Below the pieces are notes generated by a model that saw nothing but the letters and a program-made list of their open reading frames with translations, was not told the DNA's origin and ran no database searches. 64,000 nucleotides of DNA, taken from positions 5,023,823 through 5,087,822 of the forward strand of contig CM026433.1 of NCBI GenBank assembly GCA_014871385.1, read 5' to 3'. This document shows, one piece after another, positions 10,853-58,419 of this stretch. Numbering within the stretch: position 1 is the stretch's first letter; the number at the start of each line of letters is the position of its first letter. The stretch comes from Ceratodon purpureus. Lineage: Eukaryota; Streptophyta; Bryopsida; Pseudoditrichales; Ditrichaceae. A program made the position numbers and the translations under genes.

Positions 10853-12960
10853 CCTGCAACAAGCCCCAAGACTTGCAGGGGTTAGCACCATGCAAAAGTA
10901 ATCAACAGTGAAGATCTTCAAATCAAATCTCTATGCATGTCATGAAACTGACAAACTCCACCACACTTTCAAGGATTACTTCCTCCTCTACTAATCGAGA
11001 CTAGAAGCTCATCGTCAGTGAATCCAAACAGACTTAAATCCAGCGGGCCGCAGCCTCCAGCACCAAACAAATCCATCACAAATATAGCCTGAGATTCATA
11101 ACCACCGAACATACCGCCAGATATTCAATCACACTAGCAGAAAACTCCATATGAATCGAACACTCAAGCTATGCAACCTTGTGCAAAGAAGAGATCTCAC
11201 AGTTTGTTTCCGTCTTCCAGAAACAGGGCCTCCCCACTACTATCCACTCCTCCGACAACCGACTTCCAAACTGAATCAAGTCCCCAACACAGCAACCACT
11301 CCCATAAACGCTAATCCAACGGCACCTAGAACGAAACCTTGGTTTACAGACAGGCGTACAAATGCAGATTCATCTTCTCACAGAAGCAAAAAGCTTAGAT
11401 CATAACAAGGAAAAAAGGAGGAACACTTCAAAATGCACAAGAATGGAATTCTAGCTCTAGGCAGCGGTGCCTACCTCTCGCTGATCATCGCAAAGACGAT
11501 ACTAAAGATCACCGTCGAACAATATAGATCGAAAACCGCGCGCTGAGAGCAACCCTAGGAATCTTCAAAGGCCACAGCAGCAACCGCGCGCTGCCGGCCT
11601 TGTAGTGGTGAACAGTGGAACCCCAGCTCGTGCACCGCTATGGCTCCGGCAACCCTCCGGCCTGGTTCGCCATCCCTTCCATTACATCTGTACAACCAAG
11701 TCTGCTGATGGAAACAATCTGAAATTGACTACAGCCTCCCACTTCCCTGTTTCATCATCTGAAAGTCAGCCCTATGTGAGAATAGGAACGTTATTTCACA
11801 CCAGCCACACCAGCGCAAGGGAAACGATATTCACCTTAGGATAACAGAAGGAGAACTGTGGCAACATATCTAAAGCAATTGTTTGAAATGGAAACCAGGA
11901 TTTCAAATGCTCATCATAATGGAGAATTCAAGCAACTTGGTGAAGCTGATTGCAAATGAAAAAGAGTCTGGTTGCTACCTGTTTCCTCTTGGAGATTGGC
12001 AGCTTGAAGAGCGTCTTCAAGGCGTGGATTCATGAAATGCATAAAGTGCGATAAGCATTCAATGATGGGCGGGCACGCACTCATAGATAAATTTAAAGTA
12101 CGTGTTCTTCGTGGAATATATTCGGATTTGCTGAGATGCAAGCATCAGCGTGGTACCGTCGACATCATCGCTGTGCCGTCACAGGGCCAGTATACACCTG
12201 ACAATTCCTAAGTTTGTTCACATACAGAGATCTACACTTCCCTTGCGTATAAACCATGCAGTTGCTAAGACTTGTGAGCATAACCTCTGTCCTCTAGATC
12301 CTGCACACAGCGTACAAGTGTGCAATCATGTTAATCCTTGATACCACAGAAGACTGGGAAGGGGACGCTAGATTTGGTACCGCTGACTGGAACGGCCACA
12401 GCTGGCTGCGTCTATCCACTCCTCTGATAACCGACTTCCAAACTGAATCAAGTCCCCAACGCAGCAATCACTCCCGTGCACGCTAAGTCAACAGCACCTC
12501 GAACGGAACCTTGCTTTACAGGCAGACATACAAAGCCTAGATCGCAACAAGGACAAAAGAAGGACACTTGAAGACGCTCAGGAACGGAACTGTAACCCAA
12601 CGCACGTACGGTGCCTACCTCTCGCTAACCATCGCAGAGCCGAAACTGAAGATCACCAAACACTGTAGATCGAAACCCTCCAGAGAGCGACCCCAGCAAT
12701 GTTCAAAGGCCACAATTATAACAACCCCCGCGCGTTGCCGGCCAAGTGGTGGTGAACAGTGCAACCCCAGCTCCTGCCTGGTTCGCCATTCCTTCCAGGA
12801 TTCCGCAGCTGAAGGGTGCACAGTGTTGCCATATTATTGCATGGACTCGGTGTTCTGTGAGCAGGATTACTGTGTTACCGACAAGTTGCTTTGCTGCACC
12901 TGGAATGGTCATTTTGCTGCTTCTGAAACCTTTGGGTTTGGGTGTTGCTCATTGTAGCTT
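10853..12960 (-). promoter_or_regulatory. TNL-A 5' leader with two tandem copies of a leader module
   Basis: Upstream of exon 1 an acceptor-like cag at 10854-10856 (ttgttgcag then gcc) is conserved with copy B. Two similar modules follow, 11240-11700 and 12410-12960. Each holds the same donor-like sequence, agcgagag then gtaggcac on the minus strand, with donor borders after 11475 and 12619. I infer alternative non-coding first exons, each with its own promoter, spliced to the acceptor near 10853. Apparent open frames here use non-ATG starts and are not conserved in frame between A and B. There is no transcript evidence. Confidence 0.45.
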
Positions 12961-14060
12961 TTAGTAGAAGTAATGCACTTAATAGTTTCCTCGTAGGATT
13001 TTGGAAGGGGATTTCTATGCGCTTGAGATTGTAGTTTTTGGATACTGTGTGAATGAGTTCTGGAATTTTGAGGTTTTATTTAGAATGCTTTCGTGCTATT
13101 TATTTTATAGTTGAATATGTGATCATAGAGCCATTCTTAAAGTCACCTTGAGTTTTTAAAAGATTATTTGAGTTTTTTTTATTGTGTTGTTTTATATAGA
13201 CAAAATAGTTGGGAGGCAGAAAAAAGTTTAGTGGTTTTATTCTAATTGTTGTGTAAAAAAAAGGTTGTCTTTAAACTCAAGGATGATTGGTTTTGAAGGC
13301 ATTTCATTCTTGAAATTTTAGTTTTCCTCAATTTACGGAAATCACCAAGGTCTTAGCAACCAAATATAGAGTAACGACAAATTCTTATATATCTATAAGT
13401 TATTGAGAATGAGCAAAGTAGATTATGTTTAATTAGAAGTCAACGTAGATAAAATAAAATGATTTTGAAAATAACTTTAATAACAATTCCGATTCTTTTA
13501 GGAATGCAAAATAAACTCAATTGAGTAAGTGCAGATTATATAAGCCATTTAATATTGTACATTTTCAAATATTTACAAATAAGTAAACAAACAAGAATTA
13601 AATGACAGTTTGTAAATAATGTAATCTTATTTTTAAATTATTCTTGCTTCAAAAAAATAATATATATTTACAATTTGTAGAAGTTAACTTATTTCATCTT
13701 ATTTAATGGCAAAACATACTTTCTTTATATAATTCCAAGTAATGTTAAATAATATATGAATGAAACATGTTAAATAAGAAAAGAAGTTATAGTCTCTAAA
13801 GGTGACCAACGTAGATAAGTGTTTATTCATTCCACCGCTAGAGTTGCCTCAATAGAACAAAGAAATAGAAGTAAAGAACTACTATTTTTTTTCAACAGTA
13901 AACACTTTAGTAATTAATCACCAATAGCTAATAACCATAAGTGTTCAAAGTCTTGGTGAAGGTTACAAATGTATTTGTTAAGTTTGGTTGAATCTATTCC
14001 TTGTCGCAATCACTAAGGAAGTTTCAAATTAAATTGTAAACAAAGTAAAGATGAAATGAT

Positions 14061-14180
14061 AGAAGATGATTTGTATGTTATGTTGTAGATAGAAGATGAT
14101 TTGTATGTTATGTTGTAGATAGAAGATGATTTGTATGTTATGTTGTAGATAGAAGATGATTTGTATGTTATGTTGTAGAT
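14061..14180. repeat. 30-bp perfect tandem repeat, four copies
   Basis: Four identical 30-bp units begin at 14061, 14091, 14121 and 14151. Each starts agaagatgat and ends tgttgtagat. No base differs between units, so the array is young. It lies in the segment present only in copy A. Confidence 0.95.
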
Positions 14181-14878
14181 AGAATAACAAGCATGGAAAT
14201 AATCTTGTGACTATAAGGAATTTTTGAAATCATAAAAGATTATGAGATTCATCATTACAAAGAGAAATTAGCCACATCCATACTATGTAGAGCATTTAAT
14301 GAGAAACAAGTATATTAAACGGAAAAGTTGGGGAAATAAACATTAAGAGATGATGCATAAGAGTAACAAGGTGAAAAAGAAACCAAGCACAAGCAAGAAA
14401 TATGGGCTTACTATATGAATGTGAAAATAAATCAAGATAAAAAAATTGAGTGATTGTTAAGGTATCAATACATCAATCATTTATGTTTTCAGATGGTACG
14501 ATTGTGGATGTAAGAACATAGCATTTTTCAGAGCAAAAGTATTTGTTCTATTGACTTTCTAAGCTTGTGTATTGATTTGTAGACTTCATTACTACATATT
14601 GTAGAAATGACTTTAATGATGAAAAAAACATTCATGGAATAAATTATCTTAGGAAAGAATCTAAAAATATCTCAATAAGTATCTAAACTACATATGCAGG
14701 AATAGAAAAGACCCTTCTCATGAATCTTACAAAGCATAACATTCAATTTACCATTAGACTTTGTGGCAACTTAATCATTTTAATTTGTGTAATCTTACAA
14801 AAGCACTATTTTTCACATAGATTAACATGAATTCTATTCAATTAACACACATATTTAATATATCTTAATGGAGACTAT

Positions 14879-17362: not shown

Positions 17363-18510
17363 TCAGCTCAACGTAAATCTCGAAAGCAATGGTCGGGGAG
17401 CAGATGTAGCGGCGTCCATGACCGCGGCCGCCCCATTGAAAGGGACTTCGGCCACAGCTTGCATCCGGTAGGCCTCTTGACATCGCCGCAGCTCATCCGG
17501 ACTAAACTGGAGGAGCATTGCTATCACCGGCAACAAAGCTTCTACCTCCCCAGTCTCCAACAGTTTCAGGACGACATTTTTAACGTAGATCATGTCCACA
17601 CTCGACCGTTTCTGATTTCGTTCCGAGTTCTGATACTCTTCTTTCAGAATTGTGATCTGGTGAACACGAAGCCGGTTCTCTTGTTCCAACTCCTTGATTT
17701 CCTCTTGCAATATGTGGCGCAGGCACCTGGCTACTTCCTCTTTCTGTGCCTGAAGCCGGGCCAGTGTTAGGATCTGTTGCTCGGCAGTAGGAGGGGGTGG
17801 TGAACTGGTTCTTTCGATTGCTGCATAAGAAGAGGATTCGACAGGGAATCTACATGATCAGACACTCTCACCCCTTCCAAACTGATGATCCACTTCCCCG
17901 GAGTCTCAACCCTAGTGTGTGCTATTTTCTGGAGTTGAGATTCAAGTGACCTGTTCTTTTCCATCAACTGCGCCAGAATATGATCAGAGGCCAACTTCGA
18001 ACCCCTAAACTCAGCTTCAAGCTTCACTTTTGCTTCGGCGCTTCGATGAGCGTTTGACTCAAGTGCTTCATGCTCAGCTTCGAAATTCTCTTTCTCTTTC
18101 GCGACATCATGAAGCAAGTGCTTCGCTATCAGCGTCAAGCTTCTTCCTCTCTTCGGCATTTCGACAAGCTTCCAAAGCAAATGCTTTACGTTCCCCCGAG
18201 TAATCCTTCTCAGCCAAGGCATCACCATTGCTTCTGACCCTGCTACCGTTATCGGATACCTCAGAAGTGGCACGTTATCGCGATCCGACTTCAGATAACG
18301 CTCCCTCATTTTCAGAGTGCGAGTCGAAAGCATCCAGACAACCATTAGAAGCAGCCACAATCGCAGCCACACCCGCTTCAGCTCTTCGCTGCGCCAATTT
18401 TACCACAGCACTCTGTTTCTTCACAGCTTGCAGCATCTTCTTCATTGACGCCGTTTCCGATGACACTCGGCCCTCAAGCTTTCCACATCACCTGGTGCCA
18501 TATCCAAAAA
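17363..18510 (-). pseudogene. Decayed GRIP-domain golgin gene fragment
   Basis: On the minus strand the C-terminal part reads as a GRIP golgin, a coiled-coil protein that tethers at the trans-Golgi through Arl1. One open block, from about 17800 down to 17363, contains QQILTLARLQAQKEE, then VDMIYVKNVVLKLLETGEVE, then ALLPVIAMLLQFSPDEL, ending in LLSRFTL as plant GRIP proteins do. Upstream, coiled-coil blocks lie in different frames: about 17870-18110 with KENFEAEHEALESNAHRS, about 18110-18230 with ERKAFALEACRNAEERKK, and 18275-18466. At least three frame changes break it, and the N-terminal part is missing. No obvious introns separate the blocks, which fits either a retrocopy or a fragment of a long exon. 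Confidence 0.75.
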
Positions 18511-18720: not shown

Positions 18721-21700
18721 TCATCCACAGATGCAACGACTATGATGAAGCATGTGCTGCTGCTTCGACCTGAAGAACGTTCTCATCGTCTTAACTACTC
18801 TCATCAGCTTCATCCTCATCCGAGGACCACTTTCATCAGATGCGTCCTTTACCCTGAACTCTGTCAGATTTGGAAACCTACTCAAATCCAGCACTTCCTC
18901 ATTGAGATCACAACCAATAAGTTCGATCTTCCTCACAGCTGTCAATCGTTCGCTGCAACTCAACTTTGTCAGCGCTCTACATTCCTCAAGCCAAAGTTCT
19001 TCCAATTGCGGAAATGTACTCAAATCTGGAATTTCTACCAGACTCTCACAATTAAACACTTTCAACTTGGTCAATTCCGTCAAGGGATTGCCGCAAGTCA
19101 CCCTTTCTAAAGCACTACAGCCTCTAAGCTCTAGCTTCACCAGATGAGAGAAATTAGTAAGATCCAATGCTTCCATCTTCGAAAATCGGTTGATCGAGAG
19201 AACCTCCAGTTGCGAACATAGAGATGTCAGGCTGAGCACATTCTCACATTCGCTCTCCCAAAGATCCAGTTCACGCAACCTTGTCAATGTTTCAAGATCT
19301 CGCACGAAGCTCGTCACTGAGGATCCATCCACTGCTAGAGTTTTTAACGAGCACAATGTACATTCACTCCGCCAGTCACTTAGATTCGGGCAACCCAAGA
19401 TTTCAAGCGTAGTCAATTTTGTAAGCCTCCCAAATTCAGGTAATCTCTCCAACTTCTCACAACGATGCAACAAAAGAGTCTCCAAAGCTGTTGAATTGCT
19501 CAATCCCGACAAGTCCTTGTACTCGCAATCCTCTAAGCTCACCATCCTCAACCTCTCCAAATTCTGCAGGTCGGGCATCACATCGTCACCTTTGCACCAA
19601 GTTAGTCCAAGCTCCTCCAACATCAGCAGGCTTCGTATACTCGCCCATATTGGTCCATTCCATCCGTCAATGGACACAACTTTCAGCGCTGACAGCTTGG
19701 AAAGAACTGGCGCCTCTCCTGACAGCTTACCAAAAGAGGCATGAAGTTCTGTCATGGAAAACAGAGCATCCAAGCCTGGAACTTCCTGTACAGGGCACTT
19801 AGGTATGCCCAATATCCGCAGTTTTGTGAGCTTCGCCAGATCAGGCAACATGACAAGTTTCGAAGAGCCGAAAGCAGAAAACTCCTTCAAAGAAACCAGG
19901 TCGCTTAACCCAGGCACTGCCCTTATGGACTTGCAATCACAAATGATCAACTCCCTCAATTTCGTCAGCCGCCCTAAACACGGCAGCTTTTCCAGCATAC
20001 CACATCCCATTAACACAAGCAGCTCCAAAGCATACAATTCACCCACGCCAGGGCACTCTCGGAACGACTTGCAGTCAACTATCCTCAGGATCCGTAAATC
20101 GGCCATCCTTGAACTTAAGCCTTTCAACGAAACCAAGTCCGGAAATCGGAAAATCCCAACATTCCGCAAGAATCTCAGCTCCGTCAAATCAAGCACTTCC
20201 GTACCCTTGCAACCCTCAAGTTCAAGCACCTGGAGCTTTGTTAGGCGTCCAATCCCATCCAAACATGGTCCAAATCGAGGCGTGATCCAGGACAGAAAAA
20301 CAAGGCTCGATAATGAGCTCAGTCCTTCAGCTCTCACTGTCAGCCCAGGAGTGTCCAACTCCAAGCTCTTGAGGTGCTTCAATCCACTCAAATCCAAATC
20401 CAGGTCACAAACCGGCGTCAAGATATTTACTTTCAACTTGAACGCTTCCACGTTCACAAAGTCAGTCAGATCGACTCCCTCCAAACCCCTCCACCCCTCC
20501 TCCAAGAAGCACATTCTCTCCACAGTCTCTCTCCACCCACCACTTCTTCCAAGTGCCTTCTTTCCGTCCACATGGTACACCCAACGTTGCTCTCTGCCAT
20601 CTTGGGCCTTGGTTTCCGCAACGGCAAACTCAATCCATAAGTCGTGCATGCCAATTCTCGTGAAGTCGTCAGTCAAGTCCTCCAGAAGAGATTTCCTCTT
20701 CAGCACCTCAAGCTACACACAGAAACAACCACCCCGCCTCATTCTCACATTCAAATTTTAAGCCACAAAGAGCTTTGAGAACACAACTATAAACATAACT
20801 CTATTACTCAATTAAACATCTAGTATATCACCGACCTCAAATCACATGCAATAGAGGCCCATGGGTTGTCCTCATGATCTTCATGACACAGTAGATTCAA
20901 AATGTTCAAAGTACAAGTCACAACCCTCACCATGTCCTTCACATCTTCAACTGCTGCTTCATGGAGATAACACAACACATCCCGCCTTGTCACACCTACA
21001 AAAGGATGATCAAAACCAGGCAATATCAGCAAGGCAAGGTCCATGAACACCATCTGATGTTTGCGATCCAATGAGTCATAGCTATTCCTCAAGATGGAAA
21101 ACACTGGATGTGTTCTATATTTTAGCTGATTGAATGCGTCGATGCTGCGTAATTGTGCGGCCCACTTTGTCGTGTTGAACCCAAGCTGTTGACCCAAGAC
21201 CTTCAGTGCAAGAGGATGGTAGTGTCTGCTTCTGCCATCGCCTTTCAAGAAATGGCACCGCTCAATGCAGTCCTTCAAAAGCCCCTCATCAACTTCATGT
21301 CGTGATGGCAAATCCGCATAACTCAGAAACAAGGTCTCTGCCTCATCTTCTTCCAACTCCGGCATTTCCAAACAATTCCTTGCATCCAGATTCAACTTCT
21401 TCAGGACACTTAGAGAACGTGCAGTGACCAACACTACACTACCGCTTCCATAACTTGCTTTCAAATATCTCTGTGCAACCTCCAATGTCTTGAAGTCATC
21501 GTGGACGTTATCCAGAGCAAGGAATATTGGTTGAGTGCACAACTGCTTCTTCAAGTATGCATAACCCTACAAACAAGTCATTCGAACAGGATGCTTATAT
21601 ATGTTATTACCAAATTTGAATACCACAAATCACCAAAATTAAATGCTCTAATCTTAATGTATTAAGCTTGCACTTACCAATTCTATGTCGTCCAATTTGT

Positions 21701-23306
21701 CCAAAACATCGTGCCTTATCTTTGATAACTTCTTCAATGCTTTTCGCAACAATTCCAATTCACTTCCACGTCCCAACTCAATATGGCATACATTGTCACA
21801 AAACTTGAGAGCAAGCTCGTTGCACAAGGCTTTAGAAATGGTAGTTTTACCAATACCACCCATTCCATACAGGCCCACGATACAAACCCTTGAATTTGAA
21901 TTTGTTAGCACTTCATCCATCTTATCTTGGATGACCTGTATACCATAATCAAAAATCAAAATTATTAAATGGAACCATCTTCATTTAAGCATATGGTAGT
22001 TTTGTAAAACAAATTAATCAATTATGGCTTATGCAAGAATAAGAGGTCCATAAGCTTTTCATAGACATTACACGTGCTTCAATGTTTGTCAATAATTGAA
22101 TTAACATTGTGCAATTGTAGAAATAGTCCAAGAAAGCTATTAAGCAATTTTTACTCACCTTACAACTTCGTGACCGTCCTTGGACATAGGAGTCATCCCA
22201 TCTTGTTTCTGGAGTCACTACTCCACACACCTCCATCACAATCTCTTCTCGAAATTGCACATCACTACAACCTCTTTTAATAACCAAACCATTGATTGAA
22301 GCTAAAACCTTGAGAGCATTTTTCCATTCTTCCACATTTATGCGAATGTCTTTTTCGGACCACTTTTCCCATTGCACTGTCCATTGATTTTGAATATCGA
22401 TATCTTTAAATTCATCTATTGATAGGAGATAATAAATGGGAATGATCTTTATCCTTGAACTAGGCCTCTTTAACTCTTTCACCATGGCATTCAACTCCAA
22501 CATTGGCCACTTGCTCCTTGTAAAAAACTCCTTGGATAGAACCACCACCCCAACGTGACATTGCTCAATAGCATCAAATATCAATTTTGGAAACTTCTCT
22601 CCAATTGGTAGGCTACTTCGCCGCTTGTCAAAGAACGGGTATCTATCACATCTCTCCAAATCCACACATAGCTGCTCCACAAAGTCTTTTTGAGCACCAC
22701 TATGGCTCAAAAACACCTTGTGTTTTGCGTCCAAAATGTGATCACTGCACACAATCCAAATGTTATTACAGATGTGAATTTCATGTGCACCAGTAAAAGA
22801 AACAACGCAATTACTACTTGATGCAAAGAATCCTTTCTTATCTTAACTTATATACTCCATCGCAGCAAAACAGTTGAGATTGCAGCTAGGGACGTATATA
22901 CCTTTGGCCCGACATACTGCAAAACAAGATTGATGGACCATTGAAAAGGAAATGCACCGAAACACAAGCACTCACCATTCAGCGTGGACTTCATTGTCCA
23001 TATCGACCCCACTTAGCTCGCAGTTCACAGCAACACTGATCGGCACCTGGAGTCATATTGAACGTAGGAAGTGGTCAGCAAATCAGAAATGTACCGCAAG
23101 TAGCCAAGCACCCAAGTCGCCAGAAAGGGAAATATTACTTAGTTGGCTTCATTTCAGTGAGTGTAGAGTAGCCTGCGGGATGCCCAAAATGCGCTCACTG
23201 AATGGGATCCTAGGCTAATTCCTGGGGCGCTCACCTGGAAAATCTGGCCGGTTACATCATGAACGTGCTCACACTGAGCACGGCCAGATGAACTGGTCGA
23301 TGCCAT
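18721..23306 (-). CDS. TNL-B: TIR-NBS-LRR paralogue with broken first exon
   Basis: Exons 2-5 are open and spliced as in TNL-A: 22744-22159 (TIR, KVFLSHSG and KWPMLELN), 21935-21678 (GMGGIGKTT), 21566-20931 (LALDNVHD, HPLALKVLG) and 20712-18721 (GMHDLW and LRRs). Exon lengths 586, 258 and 636 equal those of A. Exon 1 (22976-23306) still begins MASTSSSGRAQCEH and keeps its donor. It shifts frame about 30 codons in and stops at 23154-23156, so the membrane segment is lost. At the C-terminus a frame change turns the acidic tail of A into a basic one ending RCICG. It may be a pseudogene, or it may be expressed from another first exon as a soluble TNL. Exons 2-4 show no stops, which argues against long neutral decay. 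Confidence 0.8.
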
Positions 23307-23358: not shown

Positions 23359-26170
23359 TGCAACAAGCCCCAAGACTTGCAGGGGTTAGCACCATTTGGA
23401 AAGTAATCAATCGTGAAGCTCTTGAGATCAAATCACCAACCATGTCACATTCGGGTGCTAGATCTAGAACCGGAAAAAATCGACTCTCCGGATGAAATAC
23501 CAGAGACAACTGGCAGGCAGGAAGATGCGGTTTATGCACAGAGATTCTCACATTCGGGTAGAGCCTATTTCTGAGAGGTTTCAGAACAGGAACCATTCCA
23601 AACTTATTTGAGCTCCCAACAAGAAACTAATCGTACGTTCCGTTAAATCTATCAGGCACTCACTCGATCTACAAGTGCCCTGAGCAGACAAATTGCTCGA
23701 AGAAAAAACACGATCCTGGAACTCAATTCTGAGAGCTAAGCTCATTAAAAGAAGTCAGAACTCCACATCATGACCACATAATCCATGGGCCACCTGTATT
23801 AATCAAGAATAAAATGGCGACGGCACAAAATGGATATATCTTTCCCTCTATGAGCTGCATAATGTAACCTCCATCGACTGACACCACATACAAAAAAAGG
23901 ATAAAACTGAAACGCTCAAACAAACCTTGCCCCGATCTAACCTACACGTCAAAACAAAGCACGAAGAACGACAAAGAGTACAGATTCAGAAACAGGTACC
24001 TAGAGTTGCATTGACTTGATTCCTTCTCACAGACCTCCCCTCTACCGGACCGGGACCGAAACTCCTGTAAGCTGATCATCGCACCAAATCACCTCAACCT
24101 TAAACCCGTTCATCCCAAAGCTTTCCAGACACCTCCTCCACTTCCTCGCCTCACCTCACTGCCGGCAAAAGCCACTGCATCCACTACCTACGCACATCAC
24201 CAGCTCGCTCCATCCTTCAAAAAACCTCAATCTCAACTCAACCGCAGAACGAAGCTCCACAACACCACCGGCGTCTCTTCCATCGCCAACCAGGAGCTCC
24301 AGCTCCACCCTCGCTCCCGCAAATCAACCGTGGCTCACTCCACTCAATTACGCCCCAAACCCTAGCTCCGACTCAACTGAATCGAACATCCAAGTTCTGC
24401 AACCTTGTGCAAGGAAGAGATCGCACTCGTTTCCGTCTTCCCCTCCCCACTACTATCCACTCCTCCGATGACCGACTTCCAAATCGGAATGAAGTCCCCA
24501 ATACAGCAACCACTCCCATAAACGCTATTCCAGCGGCACCTAGAACAAAACCTTGGTTTACAGACAGGCGTAGAAATGCAGATCAATCTCCTCGCAGACG
24601 CAAAAAGCCTAGATCACAAAAAGGGAAAAAGGAGGAACACTTCAAAATACACAAGAATGGAATTGTAACTCTACGCAACAGTGCCTACCTCTCGCTGATC
24701 ATCGCAAAGTCGAAACTAAAGATCACGAAACACTGGAAATCCAAACCCTTCAGAGAGCGATCCCATGAAATCTTCAATGGCCACAGCAGCCCCCGCGCGT
24801 TGCCGGCCTTGTAGTGGTGAACAATGGAACCCCAGCTGGTGCACCGCTATGACTCCGGGAACCCTCCTGCCTGGTCCTAAATCCTTCCCATTACATCTGT
24901 ACAACCAGGTTTGCTGATGGAAACAATCTGAAATCGTCTACAGCCTCCCACTCCCCTGTTTCATCATGTGAAAGTCAGCCCTATGTGAGAATAGGAATAT
25001 CATGACACACCAGCCACACCAGCGCAAGAGAAACGATATTCACCTTAGGTTAAGAGAAGGAGAACTGTGGCAACATTTCTAAAGCAATTCTTTGGAATAG
25101 AAACCACGATCTCAAATGCCCATGATCATAGTGGAGAATTCAAGTAAAAGTGAAGCTGATTGCAAATGAAAAAGAGTCTGGTTGGTACATGTTTCCTCTT
25201 GGAGATTGGCAGTTTGAAGAGTGGATTCATGAAATGCATAAAGAGCGAACCGAACAGAGCTTATATATTCAACGATGGGCGGGCTGCGCACTCGTACATA
25301 AAAGTACGTGTTCTTCGTGGAATATATTCAGATTTGCCGAGATGCAAGCATCAGCGTGTTACCGTCGACATCATCGCTGTGCCGTCACAGGGCCAGTATA
25401 CACCTGACAATTCCTAAGTTTGTTCACATACAGATATCTACACTTCCCTTGCATGTAAACCATGCAGAACTTGCTAAAATTTGTGAGCATAAACTCTGTC
25501 CTCTAGATCCTGCACACAGCGTACAAGTGTGCAATCATGTTGATCCTTGATACCACCGAAGATTGGGAAGGGGACGCTAGATTTGGTACCGCTGACTGGA
25601 ACGGCCACACTGGCCGCGACTATCCACTCCTCCGATGACCAGCTTCCAAACTGAATCAAGTCCCCAACACAGCAATCACTCCCGTGCACGCTAAGTCAAC
25701 AGCACCTCGAACGGAACCTTGCTTTACAGGCAGACGCACAAAGCCTAGATCGCAACAGGGATAAAAGAAGGACACTTGAAGACGCTCAGGAAAGGAACTG
25801 TGACCCATCGCAACGGTGCCTACCTCTCGCTAACCATCGCAGAGCCGAAACTGAAGATCACCAAACACTGTGGATCGAACCCTCCAGAGAGCGACCCCAT
25901 CAATCTTCAAAGGCCACAATTACGTCAACCCCCGCGTGTTGCCGGCCAAGTGGTGGTGAACAGTGCAACCCCAGCTCCTGCCTGGTTCGCCATCCCTTCC
26001 AAGTTCCAGGATTCCGCAGCTGAAGGGTGCACAGTGTTGCCATATTCTTGCATGGACTCGGTGTTCTGTGAGCAGGATTACTGTGTTACCGACAAGTTGC
26101 TTTGCTGCACCTGGAATTGTCATTTTGCTGCTTCTGAAACCTTTGGGTTTGGGTGTTGCTCATGGTAGCT
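23359..26170 (-). promoter_or_regulatory. TNL-B 5' leader, duplicated module as in copy A
   Basis: Same organisation as in copy A. The acceptor-bearing stretch (ggcctgcaacaagcccc) lies at about 23354-23370. Leader modules lie at about 24450-24890 and 25620-26170, each with the donor-like agcgagag/gtaggcac border (after 24689 and 25824). The duplication inside the leader is therefore older than the A/B duplication. The stretch 23640-24360 has little similarity to A. Confidence 0.4.
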
Positions 26171-30955: not shown

Positions 30956-32034
30956 CAAACTGTCACTATAAAGTATCCTACACGCCTATTTTATTGGATT
31001 CTTGTTACTGCTTACTTGTGACTAAAGTGTCTACTCTCAAAAGGGGTAGTAGAACTTTAATTCCATACCATTGTCCTGTAGGCTTTGGATTGGGGGTAGA
31101 TCAAACAGACACTTAATTCACGTCGGTCTCATTCGCAGACCAAAGTTTCTCTCTCTCATAGAAAAACTAGCATTGAATTATTAAAATTTAATTCGATTTT
31201 AAAATTTTTATGATGATAATTTCACTTCATCCATCAAATAATAATGATTGAGAGTTGAGTATATTGATGATTTAATTGTTATCACATATTTGATGGACAT
31301 TTGATAAATAAAAATCATATACACATGATTTCCTATTAAATTTGAATCAATTCCCTTATGAAAAATGAACAACTATAGAAAAGTCGATATGATGTACAAC
31401 TAAAGCATAGATATGATGCATTAAAATATTGTGTAACACATTCATACTATCAATGCTTGAATGTAGGAGGGAACACTCACCTTTTGATGAAAATAACACC
31501 TTTCCTAAGACCTCCTCTAAGGCCAGGTGGGAACAGACCCTTACAAATTTCCAAGTTGTTTATTGATAATTTCAGACATCATCAGAACAAAGCAGCGAAA
31601 AGAAATCAACATCGAAAAAGACACCGACAATCAAAGGAACCATGTCGATGAGAGAGGACACGTTCCCAATGATGTTCCCGACCACCCTTCCACTCCGAGC
31701 CTGATCACTTTCCAAAGCTGCGCCGGTCCGGAACCGAAGAGGCCTGGCAGCGGGACTTGGGAGGAGACATGGCAGTCGCGGTTGGCGAGCGAGCGTTCTT
31801 GCAAGTGAGCAGGACGTCCGCAGGGCGGGCCAACGCCACGCTTCCCCGCAGATGCCCCGACTGCACTGGAAGCACTCTCGTCGCGCTTGGGGCTCCTCCG
31901 CGCGGGAATAGGGGACTGCCGGATTCGATTGCAATTGTGCAGTTGAGCGTGAATTGCAGCGATTGAGGATGCGTGCTGATTAATTTGGCGGAGCTGCGGG
32001 CGGGGGACGATTTTGGCGGAGGGGAGGGGGAGCG
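30956..32034. other. Spacer and probable promoter/5' UTR of the RS gene
   Basis: AT-rich to about 31500, then increasingly GC-rich towards the ATG at 32035, as expected for a 5' untranslated region. Open frames at 31527-31966 have no family signature. Confidence 0.4.
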
Positions 32035-35000
32035 ATGGCGGGGCGTGGGATGGCGCTCACGCGCCCCGCTTGGATGAAGCACGCGGAGGAGGCCAAGGTG
32101 AAGGACGAGGAGGAGAAGGCCGCCGCGGCGCGGGCGGCGTTCGAGGCCACGTTCCGGGATGTGGAGGGGCAGGGCGGGCTGCCGGGGGCCGTGGCGGAGC
32201 CGGACTCCGACAGCGATGGCGAGGAGGTCGACCGATTGGCGAAGAAGCCCATCGGGCCGGTGGAACCCGCCAAGTGCACGGCTGCGGGGACGGGCGTGGG
32301 CGGGGGCGCTGCGGGCGCCGCAGCGTCGTTCGTGGTGGTGACCAAGGACTCCGACGGCAGGCGCATTTCGCATGGCGGGGCGTACATTAGGGTTAGGGTG
32401 AGTCCGGGCGCGGGCGTGGGCGGGGCGGAGCAGGACGCCGTGGTGAAGGACCATGCGGACGGGACGTACACGGCGACGTACGCGGTGGCGAAGCGCGGGG
32501 ACTACATGGTGAGCGTGGAGTGCAACGGGTACCCGATCTCGGGGAGCCCGTTTCCGGTGTTCTTCAGCGGCGGGAACGTGCCCCTGGGCGTGGGCATGAT
32601 TCCGACGTCGGCTCCCATGCTCGGGGCGTCGCCGTTCATGGGCGTGGGGCAGCAGATGGGGGCGTTCGGTATGCAGGGGATGTTTTCAGGTATGTTGGGG
32701 ATGATTCCTGGGGTTGTGACGGGGGCCTCGGGCGGGGCCGTCCTGCCGGGTCTTGGTGCTGCTTTTGGTGAGGTTTGCAGAGATTATTTGAATGGACGGT
32801 GTGCTAGGACAGATTGCAAGTACAATCACCCTCCTCAGAATCAGTTGATGGCCGCCTTGGCAGCAGGGAGCACCATGGGAGGCTTGAGTCAGATGCCGAT
32901 GGCGCCATCTGCCGCAGCGATGGCCGCCGCGCAGAGCATTGCCGCGGCGAACGCGTTCCAGGCGGCACAGGCGGCTCAGCAGCAGCAACAGCAGCAAGCA
33001 GGTGCGTGAGTTTCACATTGTTGGTGTCCGCAGGCTTCGCAATTGGGACGAGGTTTCATGGGAATTTGGTGTGATCTGAGCTTAGGATTTCTGAGGCGAG
33101 GAGTAACATGGTATGGGAGGCATGGGATTGCCCTTGGGAGAGTTAGTGCAGGGGTAGAGATCAGTGAAGGTGATGGTGGCATGTTGTTTACGGTTTTTTG
33201 TTTTGTCGTTACAATGCATCGCAGTTGGAATCTGGAGGGTGCTTAGGTCGGGCAGTCTGAGTAACTGACAGGGGTAAGTGTTTCCAGGCATGTTTCTGAT
33301 CTGGTCTGAATTCGTGGGCCAATGAACGGTTACCGAGGGCACTCGGTAGCTTTTGCCTACTAGTTTGTTTTGCGTTGCGTTGGGTGGTACTCGGGGTCTT
33401 GAAGCTCAGCATCTCTGGTTGTATCATAGGTGGAAGGCTCTTGGTGCTCAGTGTGATGGTTGTGAGTTCTTGGGACGATCTCGATATGTGATGTCATGGA
33501 GTAGGTCTTGTCATGATCTGACGTGTTCCAGTCTCGAGTTTGATGACGAACGTTTCTGTTCTCGGCGTGACTGAATTGTGTGGGATTGCTGTGACTTGTT
33601 CACCGACACCAGGTGTCTTGACTTACCGTGCAGCCACCTGAGATGGGCGATTATGAGTCGTTGTGGGACAAGTGTATAGGGTGCACGGAGGGCTGTGCCG
33701 CAATGCGGCTGTAAATCTCGTGCAATTGTTCATGCTAGGCACTGATAGTAGACGGTGGCGTGCACTGACTCTGCGTGTGATTATATCCAGGTCACGAGGA
33801 CGGGGATGGGAAAGAAGATGACGAGGAAGACAATCACGAGCCAATCTGCACCCTCCATGTGACCAACATCAACCCCATCCTGACCGCCGACCAGCTGCGG
33901 CAGTTGTTCAATTACTGTGGAACGGTGGTGGATTGCACGATGTCGGAATCGAAGACATCTGCGTATGTGGAGTACTCGAAGCCAGAGGGTGCGAAGGCCG
34001 GGCTGTCTCTGAACGACATGCCGGTGGGAGGTCAGAGCCTGAAGGTGCAGCTGAAAAGGAAACCGCGGTCCGGGAAGCAGGGTTCCGGCAACGGGCCGAG
34101 CATGAACGGGATGGGACCGCCGCAACTGCCGATGATGATGCAACAAGCCGTGGTGATGCAGCAGATGCAGTTTCAGCAGGCCCTGTACATGCAGCAGGCA
34201 ATGGCGACGCAGCAGGCAGCAGCTCGGGCGGCGACGGTGAAGTCTGCGGCGGAGATGGCATCTGCGCGGGCGGCAGAGATTTCGAAACGACTGGCTGGTC
34301 CGAACGATGCGGTGGATGGTGCTGCTGGTGCTACACCAGAAACGGTGAAAGCTAGTCCCAGGTGGGTCTCACTATCCTGGTAGTGTGGTTCAGGTATGGT
34401 TTTTGTCCTGGGAGCCAAAGCGATATGCGCGCTGTCATGATGACAACTTGGGAGTGTTTCACGAGAGTAGATCGATATGAATTTGTCCGACGTTTGGGAT
34501 GATTTGGTATTTTTCTAAATCTCGACATACACTGTCGTGTAAAGAGAATGGCGCTAGCTAGGTTCTGTCTGTGACATGCTTGTAACTGAGTTGTCGGTCA
34601 TTTTCCTGCAGTTTACTATAGGTAGTGATATCCGTACATTTTGAGGGGATTGGAGGCCCGGCTCATGATTCCAGTTCTTTAACCCGGTGTTCGTGGGTGC
34701 AGGGCTCGGTCAAAGTCGAAGTCTCGGTCACCTTCTGCAAGGTTCCGGCGAGATCGTCGTTCTCGGTCAGGCACTCCGGCTCGGCTGCGGCGTCGACGTT
34801 CCCGGTCAAGATCAAGGGAGCGCGGTCACTATCAGGGCAGCAGGGATCGGGGGTCGTATCACAGGGGTGGACGCGATTCGAGCTCGTGGCACTTGTCGAG
34901 ACGGGACCGGGAGCGGGAAAGGGAAAGAGAGCGAGAAAGGGAGCGAGACAGTAGAGATCATTATAGCTCGCGCAGTAGCCGCAGGGTTCGCAGCCGGAGC

Positions 35001-37183
35001 CGAGATCGTGTGAGGAGGAGGTCTCGGACACGGTCAAGTTCACGTTCACGCAGGTGAGACATGGTGTCCGAGTTTGTTGTAGAAGGGGGTGCACCTGAGG
35101 TGTGGAACAATGCATGGCAAGGAACACTCTGATTTGTCTGTTGCATTTAGTGTGGAGGAAGGAGTCATGCACAGCAGCGGTATCTTATTCTGTTGGTTCA
35201 CGTAGGCGAGATGCTTCGGCACTTGATGCGTAGTAGTGCAGTTGTGGGTCGTTGTGTGTTGGTCGATCTGATGTTTTGATTTGGGAGAATTGCAGGGAGA
35301 GAACTCCATCGCCCAGACGGCATCGTGCGTATGAATCAGAGCACAGGGGCAGCACACGGGGGTCAAGACGGACAAGGTCTCGGTCGAAAGAGACGAAGAG
35401 GAGTCGGTCTAGGAGTGGGAGCAGGAGCTCGGTGAAGGTGAAGGATAGTCCAAGAGGTGGAAAGGTTGTGAGGAGTGCAGGTGCCGCTGGGGACGACGCG
35501 ACGAGCCCAAAGAGGAGGGGAGGCACGGAAGAGAGGAAGGAATCGGACAGGGCTGTTCGTGGGAAGAGTGAGGCGGGGAACAACGATTCAGGTGCCCGGA
35601 ATGTGAGTGCGGGGAATGGAGCAGTGGCGAGTAAGAGCATTCCGATCGATGACGTGGTGATGGAGGTGAAGTCGTCCTTGAGTGCGAAACTGGACACTGC
35701 CACCATTCTGAAAGACCTGGAAGAGAAGAGGAGGCAGCAGCCCAGAATCCCGGAGGACTCGATCAACGTGGTTCCTGTGGGGTTGGCTGCATCCGAAACT
35801 GGCGTGGGACTGAAAACGAAGGGGTTCAAGAAGCCGGCGAAGAGGGCCAGCAAGGAGAGGACAGCGACAGGCGATGATGTGAGCGAGGAGGAAGAGACGG
35901 ATGTGATCGACGATTGGCGGGACGACATCAAAGCTCAGGGTCGAGAGAAGGCTAAGAGTAAGGATAGGAAGGAGAGGATGGCAAGCAAGAGGAGCAAAGA
36001 CGAGGAAGAGAGAGCGGGTGTTGGAACGGTTGCTGGGCCGAGAGGGGAGAGAGATGTGCAGAACGGAAGGGAGTCTAGTGTCGCAAAGGAGGCGGTGAGT
36101 GAGAAGATTGTGGTTACGCCGGTGAGGGAGTCGGGGATGAGCGGACGAGGTGAACATGGTGGTGATGATAGCGATGGTGGGCGTTGGGGTACGGCGGACA
36201 TGATGAATGAGTCGGGTGTCGCTGAGAGTAGGCAAGGGGAGGGATCACTGCAGCGGATGCTGCCTGCTGGCGACAGAGCTAGAGGTTCGGCAGGAGCGTT
36301 GACGGAGACAAGGAGAGTGACGGAGAACGTGTATTTAGCTACCACTGAGATCTGGAAGGCGGAGGTGAAGGAGAAAGTGGTTGAAGAGAGTGTGGTGACG
36401 GAGAAAGTTGTGAGCAGCAGCATGAGGGAGGAGGTGGTGATAAGTGAAGTTGGAGGCGAGAAATCATCTGCGGTGAAGAGTTTGAAAGACGCCGAGGTTG
36501 TGGAGGAAGGTCCTACCCACGGCAAGAGCAGAGTTAGAGCGGATGACGAGATGGACGAGGGCAGTGACGACGAGAAGAAGCGTGAAAGGAAAGCAGTCGA
36601 GGTATCAGAAGGGGACGATGAGCGGGAGAGAAGGGCTCGGAAGAAGGGACGAGAGGTCGACGAGGAGGAGGAGCGAGAGAAGAGGCGCAGGAAGAAGTCA
36701 CATGAAACAGGGGGTGAGGATGAGGAGGAAGAACGCCATCGAGAACGACATCGACGGCACCAGCGGAAGCACCGGCATGAAGGTGATGCAGAGAAAGGTG
36801 AAGGGGAGGATGAGGAGAAGGAGGATGCCGAGCAGCGAAGGGAGAGACGGCGGCACAAGAAGAAGCACAGGAAGGATGAGTCGGAGAAGCGGGAGAAGAA
36901 GCGGCGCAAGCACAGACACAGAAGGAAACGAACCCCATCGGAGTCGCCGGAGTTGTCCCCATCTGGGGCGGATAAGACAAAGCGAGGTGAGGAGGATGAT
37001 GGTCGCAGCAAGCATAAGCAGCAGCGGTCGCGACATGTGAGATCGCCTTCGGTGGAGGCAGAGAAGGGTGCAGTGGATTCCGCCGACGAAGGGGCGACAA
37101 GGAAGAGGAGTTCGAGCAGGCACAGGAAGAAACGGAGAGATCCGTCGAAGTCGGCATCGGAGAGCCCCAGCTCGAGCGAGTAG
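32035..37183 (+). CDS. Filamin-repeat / CCCH / RRM / RS-domain RNA-binding protein
   Basis: Four exons: 32035-33001, 33791-34361, 34703-35053, 35296-37183, giving 1258 residues. Exon 1 has a filamin/ABP280-type Ig-like repeat near residues 95-185 (VKDHADGTYTATYAV, then GSPFPVFFSGG). It also has a CCCH zinc finger of form C-x7-C-x4-C-x3-H (Cys248, Cys256, Cys261, His265) and a Gln-rich end. Exon 2 has an RRM near 341-412 (LHVTNINPILTADQLRQLF, AYVEYSKPEGA) followed by a Met/Gln/Ala-rich stretch. Exons 3 and 4 encode a long Arg/Ser and charged Lys/Arg/Glu tail. The RRM resembles SREK1-like splicing regulators. By family it should act in the nucleus in pre-mRNA splicing or polyadenylation. It may match the Arabidopsis immunity regulator IRR (AT3G23900), but that is from memory and uncertain. 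Confidence 0.88.
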
Positions 37184-53735: not shown

Positions 53736-56700
53736 ATGGCCTCCACCAGTTCATCCTGTCATGCTGAGATTAAGCACGTAGATGTATCTGGCCAAGGCTC
53801 TGAAGAGAACGTGCTTGGAGAGGAGTCTGCGAGCACAATCAGTGAGCACATCCAAGAGATTCCACATGAAGTCTCTGCAGCAACTGCAACGGAGTCGAGA
53901 AACAAGCCACCGTCTCTTGTGGCTAATTGGCTGCTTGGCTTCGTCCATTACGTTGGCGGTATACTTGGCCTCTTGATAAGTTTTCTACCCATTATAAAAC
54001 TGAGGGAGCATGAAAAGGTCAAAGAACCTGATTGTGAAGTGATTCGCAAGCCTCGCACGCTCACCGTGGATAGTGGCAATATTCCTGAGAGGTGAGTGCT
54101 TTGTGCTTTCTTACTGATGTTTCCAATTGCACGAATGCTGCAGTAGAGGATGTGATGTGGCATCACATAAACAAAATGGGATATCAATTGCAATGAATTT
54201 TACTTATCAGTTGTGGAACCCGTCATACCAAAATAGTAGATGATGAATTTTCAATTACAAGTAGTACATGTGGTGCTTTGTTTGGTTGCTGGTTTTTGTC
54301 CGCTTGCTCAAAACTCACATTTTTTTGTGTTTGAAATGGTGTGTAGCCAACATGATTTGGAATCCAAGCACAAGGTGTTCCTTAGTCATAGTGGGGCTCA
54401 AAAGGATTTTGTGGAGCAGTTGTGTGTGGATTTGGAACGATGTGATAGATTCCCTTTCTTCGACAAGCTTCAAAGTAGTATACCAGTTGGCGAGAAATTT
54501 CCAAAACTCATTTTTGATGCCATTGAACAATGTCAAGTTGGAGTGGTTATCTTATCTGAAGACTTTTTTATGAAGAGCAAATGGCCAATGTTAGAATTAA
54601 ATGCTATGATAAAAAAATTGGAAAGGCATAATTCAAGGATAACAATAATTCCACTGTTTTATCAAATTTCAATAGAGGCCTTCAAAAATCCAAAGAACCA
54701 TAGTCGTTGGATATTGCAATGGAAAAAATGGGCGAGTATTGACAAGCGTATCAATGTAGAAGAATGGAAGAAGGTTTTAAGAGTTATGAAGACAATTACC
54801 AGTATTGTGGCAGAAAAAGGCATAAGTGATGTAAGTCTTCGAGAAGGTATTGTTGCAGAGATTTGTAGATTAGTGCCTTCTGAAACAAGATATGATAATT
54901 CTCATATTCAAGGATGTTCACGTATTTGCAAGGTGAGTAAAAGTACTTATCAATTCTTCCACTTCAATTCTATAATTGAATATTTTAGATATAATAACTA
55001 TTTGAATAAAATAACTATCATGTGTTGTAAAATTTATGGCAATTTTATAAATTCAATAGTTTTAAGATTTTTCTCTCTAGCACTATGTATAATTTGAAAC
55101 ATTCTCACATATACATTCATATTGTTGATTTTTTCATATGATTCACAGGTGATACAACACAAGATAGATCAAGTGATGACAACATCAAAAAATCATATAA
55201 TTGGTTTATATGGAATGGGTGGCATAGGGAAGACTACCATTGGGAAAGCTTTGTGTAATGAACTCTCTTCAAAATTTCATGATAAAGTGTGCCACATTGA
55301 ATTTGGAAGTGGAACTGAAATGGAGTTGCTGCGAAAAACATTGAAGACATGTACACAGATAAGGCATGATGTTCTTGATGAATTGGATGATATAAGTCAG
55401 GTATTATCAAATTCATTTTATTTCTATTACTGAAATATTTTTTTCTCAAAATAACTATTTCATTATAAAATATTATTTGAAAATTTTCATCACATTGTTA
55501 TTAATAAATTTGTTGTTTTTTCTTGCACAGGGATTTTCTTATTTGAGGAGAAGAATATCTACTCAAAAAGTATTTTTGGTTCTTGATAATGTACAAGACA
55601 ATTACAAGTCAATACAAGTAGCACAAGCATATCTTAAAGGTGGATATGGACCAGGGAGTTTTATTTTAATAACTACACGTACTATTGACGTCCTAAAAAA
55701 ATTACATTTGGATGGAAGCAACAGTTTTGAAATGCCAGACTTGGAGGAGGATGAAGCAAGATCTTTAATTTTAAACTGTTCTATTTCCTTACCTAGCAAT
55801 GAAATCAATGAAGAATTTGTGAAGAATTCCATAAAGCAGTGTTATTTCTCAAAAGGTGATGGTACAAGCAAACACTACCATCCTTTGGCATTGAAAGTGT
55901 TGAGTCAACAACTAGGTTCTAATTCTACACTACAACCATCACCATTCAGTGAGATCAATACATTCAATGGATATGGACATTTAGAGCATCCTATATTTTC
56001 CATATTACGGAGCACTTTTGACTCATTGAGGCGTGAGCACCAGCTTGTATTTATGGATCTTGCCTTATTAGCTTCCAAATTAAACACTACTGTTTGGCCC
56101 ATTCATTGGAATCAACTTGATTGGCTATGTATGGTACATGATAAAACTACTGAAGAGATAAAAGATATGGTAAGTATTGTCTACATATTCCAAAATACAA
56201 TTTTTCAGAAATTTGACTAGATACTAAAATTATCTATAAACTTTGTCCACTTTGTCACTCACATATGACATATGATCTCACTCTTTTTAGGCTTTCTTGT
56301 TCTTATTTGTGTTAAGAACATATATCTCAACATTACAATTTGTTTTACCCACTTGGTTAAAGTACATGTTTCAATACAAGCATCTTAGATCATCTTGAGA
56401 CAAGATTGATTTCTATGAAGATAACAGCAGATTTCTATGAATGAGCTTAGGGAGGAGGAATTTCAGGCTCTGAATAGATACCTTTTAACAACAATAACAA
56501 ATAAAACAACAATAAATGGGCCTCTGAGTGGGTTGATAACTTGATGGTTCTGTTTGCAGTTAGAGGTCCTGAAGAGGAAATTGCTTGTAGAGGACTTGGG
56601 TGGTGGATTTACCAAAATCGGCATTCATGACCTATGGATTGAGTTTGCTGTTGAGGAAGCCAAGCCCCACAGTTTCAGAGACCAACTTTGGGTGTATCAG

Positions 56701-58419
56701 GAGGATGGAAAGAGAGCTGCTCTCCAAAGAAGGGGTAGATGGAGGGAAAGTGTGGAGAGAATGTGCTTCTTCAATTTGGGTTTCAGGAGTTTGGATGGCC
56801 TGAAATTGGATGACTTTGTGAACCTTACTGTGTTCGCCTTGGTAGTGGACATCCACATGCCGGATTGTGCACTGAATTTGGATTTGAGTGGATTGGTGCA
56901 CCTCAAGAGCTTGCAAATATGCACTCGTGGGATGAGTGTAAGAGCACATGGACTGAACTTCTTAACGAGCCTTGTTGAACTACTCTGGTGCACCCCTGGC
57001 ACACCATGTTTGGACGAGATAGGGCGTCTCAAGAGTCTCCAGTATCTGAAATTACGGAATTGCATGGGAATCAATGTGCTCAACTTCACAGAGCTGAAAT
57101 TTCTGAAAGTGGTGAAGATTACTAAGTTTCCAGACTTGATCACCATAAGAGGCTTCAGTTCAAGGTTAACCAATTTGCGATCTCTGCTCATAAAGAGCTG
57201 CAAGTCATTGCAAAATTGCCCTGGTTTGGATGAGTTGTATTCCTTGGAGGAACTTTCTTTGTTGGAATGTAGTAAGCTTCCAAGGCTGCCGTGTCTGGGG
57301 CAGCTGACCAATTTGAAGGAGTGTGACCTTTCGCAGTGCGAGTCCTTGGAAGCAGTGCCGGGATTAAGTGAGTTGGTCGCTCTAGAAAAGTTTTCCGCCA
57401 ATGGATGTCGGAAACTTGCTCCATTGCCTGATCTGGTGAAGCTCACAAAGCTCCAAGAATTGAGGATAGAGGAGTGCCTTGTGCAGTGTAAGCCAGGCGT
57501 GGCTTCTCTATTTGCTCTGGCATCTCTCCGTCCCTCTTTGAGTAAATTATCAGTCCTAGAGGTAATTACGATTTCTAAATGGAATGGACTAATATGGACG
57601 AGCATACCAAACTTGCCGATGTTAAGGAAGCTTAAATTACGTGACTGCGAAGGGGATGACGAGGTTCCAGATCTCCAGAGTTTGAAGAGATTGAAGTCAG
57701 TGAAGTTGGAATCCTGCGACTACAAAGACTTGTTGGGCCTCAGTACCGTGACGGCATTGGAGACTCTATATATACATGCATGCAACGAATTGAAGAGGTT
57801 ACCTGAATTTGAAAGACTTACAAAATTAAGACAGTTTCATATCTGTGGACGTTACTTGGATGATATCAGAGATTGGCCCAGTGCAAGTGACATGTGCTCG
57901 TTAGAAGTGCTATCAGTGGACGAAATCTCATCAACGAAAATTGTGCCTGACCATGAATCTTTGTCAGGCTTACGGAAACTGAAGCTCTATGGGAGTGGAT
58001 GTGAGAATGTGCTGAGCATGGCATCCTCATCGCAACTGGAGTTTCTTAGTATCTACTACTTCGAAACAACGGAGGAATTGGATTTCAGTGGCTTCCCTAA
58101 CCTGAGGGAGCTAGTTCTTTGGCGTTGTGGAGCTCTAAAAAGGTTGACTTGCAGCAAACCCTTGACTGCCTTGAATAGGTTGCAGGTGGAAAATTGTGTG
58201 AGTCTGGTGGAAATGCCAAATTTGAGTAGCACCTTTCCGCATTTGGAAAATCTTTTCCTGAAGAATTGTAGAGCTTTAAGTTGCATGACTTGTAGCGGAC
58301 CCTTACTTGACTTGAAAAATATCGAATTAATTGGTTGTGATCGGCGAATAGAAATGCCATATTCAGTGAGTACATTTCCCAAACTGAAATGTTATATCGT
58401 AGGAGATTCCTCTTCCTAA
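53736..58419 (+). CDS. TNL-C: membrane-anchored TIR-NBS-LRR, diverged paralogue
   Basis: Five exons: 53736-54091, 54347-54932, 55149-55400, 55531-56169, 56560-58419, giving 1230 residues. Exon order and phases equal those of TNL-A, and the TIR exon is again 586 bases. Exon 1 starts MASTSSSC, keeps the SEHIQEIPH stretch (A: SERIFGIPQ) and has a hydrophobic segment near 62-88 (VANWLLGFVHYVGGILGLL). Exon 2 has KVFLSHSG and the putative catalytic Glu in KWPMLELN. Exon 3 has GMGGIGKTTIGKALC. Exon 4 has LVLDNVQD and HPLALKVLS. Exon 5 opens with GIHDLW, so the MHD motif reads IHD, followed by LRRs. It ends GDSSS without the long acidic tail of A. Coding is intact, so it is probably a functional receptor. 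Confidence 0.9.

Follow-up and report, generated by a model that had tools for sequence, protein, structure and literature searches.

A probable coding first exon with a predicted hydrophobic helix precedes the TIR domain in two TIR-NB-LRR genes of Ceratodon purpureus and is decayed in a third

Do some TIR-NB-LRR (TNL) receptors of Ceratodon purpureus begin, ahead of the TIR domain, with an exon that attaches them to a membrane? The question is raised by a 64-kb stretch of contig CM026433.1 (hereafter the window, 64,000 nucleotides, from whose first letter all positions are counted), in which three TIR-NB-LRR genes were found: TNL-A (10799-6182, - strand), TNL-B (23306-18721, - strand) and TNL-C (53736-58419, + strand). 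According to the original prediction, the first exon of TNL-A and TNL-C serves membrane attachment and thereby fixes where TIR NADase signalling starts, an interpretation that is partly supported by the results below. The features of the three genes are the following.

53736-54091, + strand: TNL-C exon 1, very probably coding, 118 codons plus 2 nt, hydrophobic segment at about residues 60-89 (AlphaFold2 helix 61-82, block pLDDT 88 and 91)
54347-54932, + strand: TNL-C exon 2, TIR (Pfam TIR_2 7.1e-16, TIR 4e-11)
55149-55400, + strand: TNL-C exon 3, NB P-loop (open frame, homology to TNL-A exon 3)
55531-56169, + strand: TNL-C exon 4, remainder of NB (homology to TNL-A)
56560-58419, + strand: TNL-C exon 5, LRR and stop (homology to TNL-A)
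10441-10799, - strand: TNL-A exon 1, very probably coding, 119 codons plus 2 nt, hydrophobic segment at about residues 61-89 (AlphaFold2 helix 62-83, block pLDDT 80 and 83)
9622-10207, - strand: TNL-A exon 2, TIR (Pfam TIR 3.5e-15; top PDB match flax L6 TIR, 3ozi, E 6.2e-09)
9144-9401, - strand: TNL-A exon 3, NB P-loop (Pfam NB-ARC 2.5e-07)
8397-9032, - strand: TNL-A exon 4, remainder of NB (Pfam NB-ARC 1.3e-06)
6182-8164, - strand: TNL-A exon 5, LRR and stop (several Pfam LRR families)
22976-23306, - strand: TNL-B exon 1, a frameshifted remnant of 331 nt with stops in frame and a disrupted hydrophobic segment (sequence comparison)
22159-22744, - strand: TNL-B exon 2, intact TIR, no indel relative to TNL-A (Pfam TIR 6.8e-15)
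18721-21935, - strand: TNL-B exons 3-5, open (21935-21678, 21566-20931 and 20712-18721), acidic C-terminal tail differing from TNL-A by indels

The exon models of TNL-A and TNL-C read through from ATG to stop without interruption, each of the four coding junctions spans a GT-AG intron, and in both genes the exon 1/TIR junction is phase 2 while the other three are phase 0. Pfam TIR or TIR_2 was found in exon 2 of all three genes, always above the curated cut-offs; NB-ARC and LRR were identified by Pfam in TNL-A (exons 3 and 4, and exon 5, respectively) and by homology to TNL-A only in TNL-B and TNL-C. A WPMLEL stretch is present in the TIR of each gene, and in the alignment of TNL-A with L6 its Glu falls on that of the L6 stretch WCLMEL, which we take to be the catalytic TIR Glu. 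This alignment is consistent with a conserved catalytic Glu; NADase activity of the receptors is presumed. The NB-LRR intron is phase 0 in three of three models, matching the TNL marker given in PMC3352924. The TIR-NB intron is also phase 0 in three of three (exon 2/3 junctions 9622/9401 in TNL-A, 22159/21935 in TNL-B and 54932/55149 in TNL-C), whereas the same paper reports phase 2 in TNLs and phase 0 in the PNL and HNL classes. The mismatch leaves TNL membership by domains standing, since the phase is a class marker within the sample of that study and no domain definition.

Elsewhere in the window, a long open frame at 143-3211 (+) encodes a heavy-metal P-type ATPase, and a short tandem array with a 30-nt unit (tagaagatgatttgtatgttatgttgtaga) was spotted by eye at 14060-14190 (+). 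Two overlapping frames, 17366-17857 and 17770-18399 (both -, as is TNL-B), begin some 320 bases downstream of that gene; the former carries a GRIP (golgin-type) domain (Pfam 2.1e-12), no Pfam family was found at 0.01 for the latter, and the pair is perhaps a processed pseudogene. At 31984-37183 (+), frames with a filamin repeat and a CCCH zinc finger are followed by an RRM and then by a charged RS-like region without Pfam family; these are perhaps one splicing-related gene.

The description of exon 1 on which the membrane hypothesis was built proved accurate. Indeed, the exon measures 359 nt in TNL-A and 356 nt in TNL-C at the coordinates given above and joins the TIR exon in phase 2, both products start with MASTSSS and contain SERIFGIP / SEHIQEIP and WLLGYLRY / WLLGFVHY (TNL-A / TNL-C), and the hydrophobic run ends about 38 residues ahead of the TIR core, for a predicted distance of about 40. 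The exon 1 donors read AGAG/gtgggt in TNL-A and AGAG/gtgagt in TNL-C. The two products are homologous (BLASTP, 37/95 identical, E 4e-17), and tblastn of exon 1 against the entire window at E 0.1 matched only TNL-A, TNL-C (E 1e-13) and TNL-B. Mononucleotide shuffling left the exon 1 frame open in 13 of 5000 shuffles for TNL-A and 17 of 5000 for TNL-C. When TNL-A and TNL-C were compared by blastn at E 1e-3, exon 1 gave one match of 62 nt and none was obtained in the four intron pairs. No Pfam family was assigned to exon 1 of either gene at E 0.1.

Furthermore, counted from the junction codon, exon 2 reaches its first in-frame Met only at residue 82 (TNL-A, TNL-B) or 76 (TNL-C), well inside the TIR; hence a complete TIR requires a start upstream of exon 2, and exon 1 is the simplest one. 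Its ATG lies in an AUGGC context with a purine at -3 in both TNL-A and TNL-C. Each of the three copies has, upstream of this ATG, CTAACCCCTGC and then a CAG, a combination that resembles the branch site plus acceptor of an intron in the 5' leader. A role of exon 1 as a mere 5' leader is disfavoured, given the lack of an early in-frame Met in exon 2 and the constraint on exon 1 between TNL-A and TNL-C, a constraint that argues for its translation. Exon 1 of TNL-A and TNL-C is thus very probably coding, with a helical hydrophobic segment.

This constraint was measured as Nei-Gojobori dN/dS between the two sequences; as dS is close to 1 or higher, the values are rough, and their bootstrap ranges omit replicates with saturated dS (usable replicates 442 to 500 of 500 for the exon 1 parts and 425 for the TIR exon). 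Residues 1-88 gave 0.43 (0.22-0.74), indicating purifying selection, the entire exon 1 0.54 (0.29-0.86), residues 1-62 0.48 (0.19-0.86), residues 89-119 0.97 (0.32-2.43) and the TIR exon 0.12 (0.06-0.22). For the hydrophobic segment itself (residues 63-88) the ratio is 0.35, and its range stays below 1, if narrowly (0.13-0.92; 442 of 500 bootstrap replicates gave a value). The segment had been described as conserved while the remaining exon drifts. This holds against the linker, residues 89-119, where 3/30 positions are identical (Fisher p 0.005), and fails against residues 1-62, with 25/61 identical positions for 12/26 in the segment (p 0.81). On the TNL-A branch, polarised with the distant and therefore noisy outgroup TNL-C, 8/22 changes in exon 1 are synonymous (p 0.10; codon positions 6/8/8) and 12/23 in the TIR exon (p 0.0005). 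Judged from these counts, the recent evolution of TNL-A exon 1 appears not distinguishable from neutral.

As for the segment, its hydropathy is convincing in TNL-C and borderline in TNL-A. The Kyte-Doolittle 19-residue maximum of exon 1 is 2.06 in TNL-C, a value reached by 46 of 5000 exon shuffles, and 1.54 in TNL-A, reached by 603 of 5000, the usual transmembrane threshold being 1.6; in TNL-B the candidate membrane-spanning helix N-terminal of the TIR is disrupted. The TNL-A segment contains an Arg, and a window in the LRR of TNL-A scores above it on the same scale (1.65). On the GES scale and an approximate insertion scale, the exon 1 segment ranks first in the whole protein for both TNL-A and TNL-C. 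Over the 15 residues before/after the segment, the net charge is 0/-4 in TNL-A and 0/-1 in TNL-C and the number of Lys and Arg 1/1 and 2/4, respectively; for a cytosolic C-terminal (TIR) side, these charges are unfavourable in TNL-A and weakly favourable in TNL-C. With a single pass and the TIR in the cytosol, the N-tail of about 60 residues would have to lie outside, and the TNL-A charges do not favour this.

AlphaFold2 was run on exon 1 by itself, from a two-row alignment and without membrane or TIR. It predicts a single 22-residue helix per exon, at residues 61-82 in TNL-C and 62-83 in TNL-A. In ten-residue blocks, the helix reaches 88 and 91 pLDDT in TNL-C and 80 and 83 in TNL-A, while the other blocks range from 44 to 63 and from 40 to 58; the means are only 57.6 and 53.2.

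A third copy of exon 1, overlooked in the original prediction, lies in TNL-B (23306-22976, -); it retains the MASTSSS start and runs into stops past the first frameshift. Its alignment with TNL-A exon 1 contains 10 gaps with one aligner (9/10 disturbing the frame), 9 with another (7/9) and 5 gap events with MAFFT after merging, so the count depends on the aligner. Exons 2, 3 and 4 show zero gaps over 1480 nt, and exon 5 keeps 74-87 identities per ungapped window of 90 over its first 1800 nt, the register being lost only near the acidic tail. On the TNL-B branch alone, exon 2 would be expected to have taken 8.2 indels at the exon 1 rate (P(0) 0.0003) or 6.7 at the intron rate (P(0) 0.001), an expectation that rests on the 9-gap count; a hand calculation with 5 events lowers it to about 4.5, with P(0) about 0.01. 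Substitutions between TNL-A and TNL-B are spread over codon positions 1/2/3 as 19/20/18 in exon 1 and as 15/5/34 in the TIR exon, and the DNA identity of exon 1 (82.0%) compares with 75.1% for intron 1, 82.6% for intron 2, 85.3% for intron 4 and 90.8% for exon 2. TNL-B exon 1 evolves like an intron.

The TIR of TNL-B has been under constraint, as 8/20 changes on its branch in the TIR exon (again polarised with TNL-C) are synonymous against an expected fraction of 0.194 (p 0.027); the dN/dS between TNL-A and TNL-B in this exon is 0.25 (0.14-0.44). Since exon 1 of TNL-B decayed while its TIR part looks intact, the segment appears real yet not indispensable, and the decay argues against a fixed requirement for exon 1. 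The simplest reading is that TNL-B came to dispense with exon 1 at a time when selection still maintained its TIR, or earlier. TNL-B could be a young pseudogene, given that dN/dS is not distinguishable from 1 in exon 4 (0.53, 0.29-1.08) and in the LRR (0.77, 0.55-1.14) and that the polarised synonymous/nonsynonymous counts are alike on the TNL-A and TNL-B branches (6/7 and 3/9 in exon 4, 17/36 and 16/36 in exon 5). Exon 3 and intron 3 of the two genes (9401-9033 and 21935-21567, both -) are 97-98% identical (intron 3, 97.3%), for 75-85% in introns 1, 2 and 4; judging by this identity, they probably represent a gene-conversion tract touching TNL-B.

The behaviour of TNL-B suggests that exon 1 might be optional or skipped altogether, the main product then being an ordinary TNL that begins shortly ahead of the TIR, translated from a leader ATG (MISE; TNL-A, TNL-B) or, in TNL-B, from the ATG at 23001. 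The candidate starts are the following.

22976-23001, - strand: TNL-B in-frame ATG in the exon 1 remnant, candidate start just ahead of the TIR, reading MDNEVHAE and then CDHILDAKHK from the TIR exon (donor 9.9)
11475-11488, - strand: TNL-A leader-exon candidate, ATG ATC AGC GAG AG with a GTAGGC donor in phase 2, giving MISE then SDHILEAK if exon 1 is skipped
24689-24702, - strand: TNL-B leader-exon candidate, same block (MISE)

The leader block, ATG (ATC or GTT) AGC GAG AG/GTAGGC, lies upstream of TNL-A and TNL-B at four places (11488, 12632, 24702 and 25837), three of which are aligned copies, and its product, MISE or MVSE, would continue in frame into the TIR exon through the phase-2 donor GAGAG/GTAGGC if exon 1 were skipped. 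However, pairs of an ATG and a phase-2 donor are common upstream of exon 2, with 70, 91 and 72 candidates in TNL-A, TNL-B and TNL-C, and the donor of the block, at 6.9, lies below the range of the 12 real coding donors (7.0-11.6); the match may therefore be due to chance and is suggestive only. Among the best 9 of these 70, 91 and 72 candidates, the exon 1 donor itself comes top in TNL-A (7.7, shared with an internal Met) and in TNL-C (10.7). In TNL-B the ATG at 23001 is top among the best 9 of 91 (donor 9.9), and there the leader is equalled or surpassed by four candidates of no known role. The next TNL-C candidates (9.9, 7.3 and 7.3, among the best 9 of 72) encode 1, 2 and 23 residues and none is the leader block. 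A dispensable exon 1 would agree with its decay in TNL-B beside gap-free exons 2-4, but the constraint between TNL-A and TNL-C argues for translation, and we consider an optional or skipped exon 1 unlikely.

A variant of this scheme, which we regard as quite speculative, makes anchoring a detachable exon module: one locus could yield an anchored receptor with exon 1 or a soluble one with the MISE leader spliced to the phase-2 TIR acceptor, and TNL-B would have become permanently soluble through exon 1 decay. The choice of first exon would then decide whether TIR signalling begins at a membrane or in the cytosol.

Several other features were seen around these starts. The 5'-leader region is tandemly duplicated upstream of TNL-A (11240-11633 with 12412-12777) and of TNL-B (24482-24842 with 25648-25981) at a spacing of about 1.14-1.17 kb, each duplicate retaining an ATG-NNN-AGCGAGAG/GTAGGC donor. 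In TNL-C, an ORF at 54240-54346 (+) begins at an ATG of intron 1 and enters the TIR in frame, its first residues (MMNFQLQVVHVVLCLVAGF) being hydrophobic and resembling a signal peptide; TNL-A and TNL-B have no equivalent Met. A consensus-like donor, CAG/GTGAGC, occurs inside exon 1 after codon 24 in TNL-A (10722-10730, -) and TNL-B and is absent in TNL-C.

The remaining explanations differ in what they make of the N-terminal peptide. The helix might not be transmembrane at all and instead pack on the TIR or NB, or self-associate, so that exon 1 would regulate the receptor in the cytosol. Such a role would suit TNL-A, borderline for insertion and with unfavourable flank charges, as well as the hydrophobic moment of the TNL-C segment (up to 1.45 on the Kyte-Doolittle scale), and a prediction made without membrane or TIR cannot separate packing from insertion. 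It fits less well with the 2.06 over 19 residues in TNL-C, above the threshold, and with low-confidence flanks that look disordered and tether-like; we hold it somewhat unlikely, though a serious candidate. It is very unlikely that the N-terminus acts as an organelle-targeting or other sorting peptide with no tether: plastid transit peptides are Ser/Thr rich, as is MASTSSS, but they are not net negative, whereas the N-tail carries -2 in TNL-A and -7 in TNL-C and the hydrophobic helix sits about 60 residues in. Hardly credible, finally, is a new intron within TNL-B exon 1 (donor CAG/GTGAGC after codon 24, acceptor CTCCAG/GTG), which would leave an open frame without the hydrophobic segment. Of 13 GT-AG pairs that reopen the reading frame towards the TIR exon in TNL-B this one is the best, but some frame-restoring pair arose in 1701 of 2000 neutral simulations and one at least as good in 89 of 2000. 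Moreover, on matrices derived from the 12 coding introns of the three genes, its acceptor scores -1.3, where theirs score 10.4-16.2, and its donor 7.1, where eleven of theirs score 9.3-13.7 and the twelfth 1.5.

The reading that we prefer, with a probability of roughly one half, is that exon 1 tethers the receptor to a membrane via its helix and is a lineage-labile module. Exon 1 would then be a true first coding exon, belonging to a TIR-NB-LRR family and adding about 120 residues laid out as a disordered, Ser/Thr-rich and weakly acidic N-tail, a 22-residue hydrophobic helix (about 62-83) and a linker, likewise disordered, that leads to the TIR. As with the anchors of flax L6 and M, the helix would act as a signal-anchor-like tether that keeps the not yet activated receptor on the plasma membrane or an endomembrane; activation would bring the TIRs together at the membrane, where NAD would be hydrolysed, and the linker would give the TIR room for assembly. 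Such a tether would be a lineage-labile accessory outside the enzymatic core, strong and probably membrane-attaching in TNL-C, weaker in TNL-A and lost in TNL-B. If the helix does anchor, the locus offers a natural comparison between close relatives with an anchor (TNL-A) and with none (TNL-B), plus the more hydrophobic TNL-C. This comparison would probe whether membrane tethering of a TIR enzyme alters the site and strength of signalling, and also whether flax and Ceratodon purpureus came by such anchors independently.

Pattern searches gave 5 matches for TNL-C exon 1 in viral contigs and 21 for the TNL-A TIR exon in genome contigs, none of them confirmed, the collections being viral, bacterial and archaeal and hence uninformative on plants. 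TIR-NLRs have expanded in mosses, and 11 of 20 TIR domains of non-flowering plants caused moderate to strong cell death in Nicotiana benthamiana, according to PMC11218826. In the main text of this paper and of PMC3352924, which treat bryophyte TIR-NLRs, the word transmembrane occurs 0 times, and no description of a hydrophobic N-terminal segment in bryophyte TNLs was found in a limited, partly accessible open-access literature.

Anchored TNLs are already known, since flax L6 and M are localised, to the Golgi and the tonoplast respectively, through N-terminal signal anchors; deletion of the anchor destabilises L6, and redirected L6 is still functional (PMC3801107; the L6 anchor is also mentioned in PMC7414095). 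The top PDB match of the TNL-A TIR is that of flax L6 (3ozi, E 6.2e-09), with a bacterial TIR a close second (3h16, 1.3e-08). Arabidopsis RPP1 is another TNL with an N-terminal hydrophobic segment, and its TIR (5teb) matches TNL-A more weakly than L6 does (E 6.9e-05). Like L6 and M, TNL-A and TNL-C are TIR-NB-LRR proteins with a hydrophobic N-terminal segment outside the TIR, here predicted from sequence. In L6 and M, however, the anchor forms the extreme N-terminus, whereas the segment described here lies behind a tail of about 60 residues. What differs from L6 and M is thus the internal position of the segment, its placement on a phase-2 exon of its own and its loss in a sister copy.
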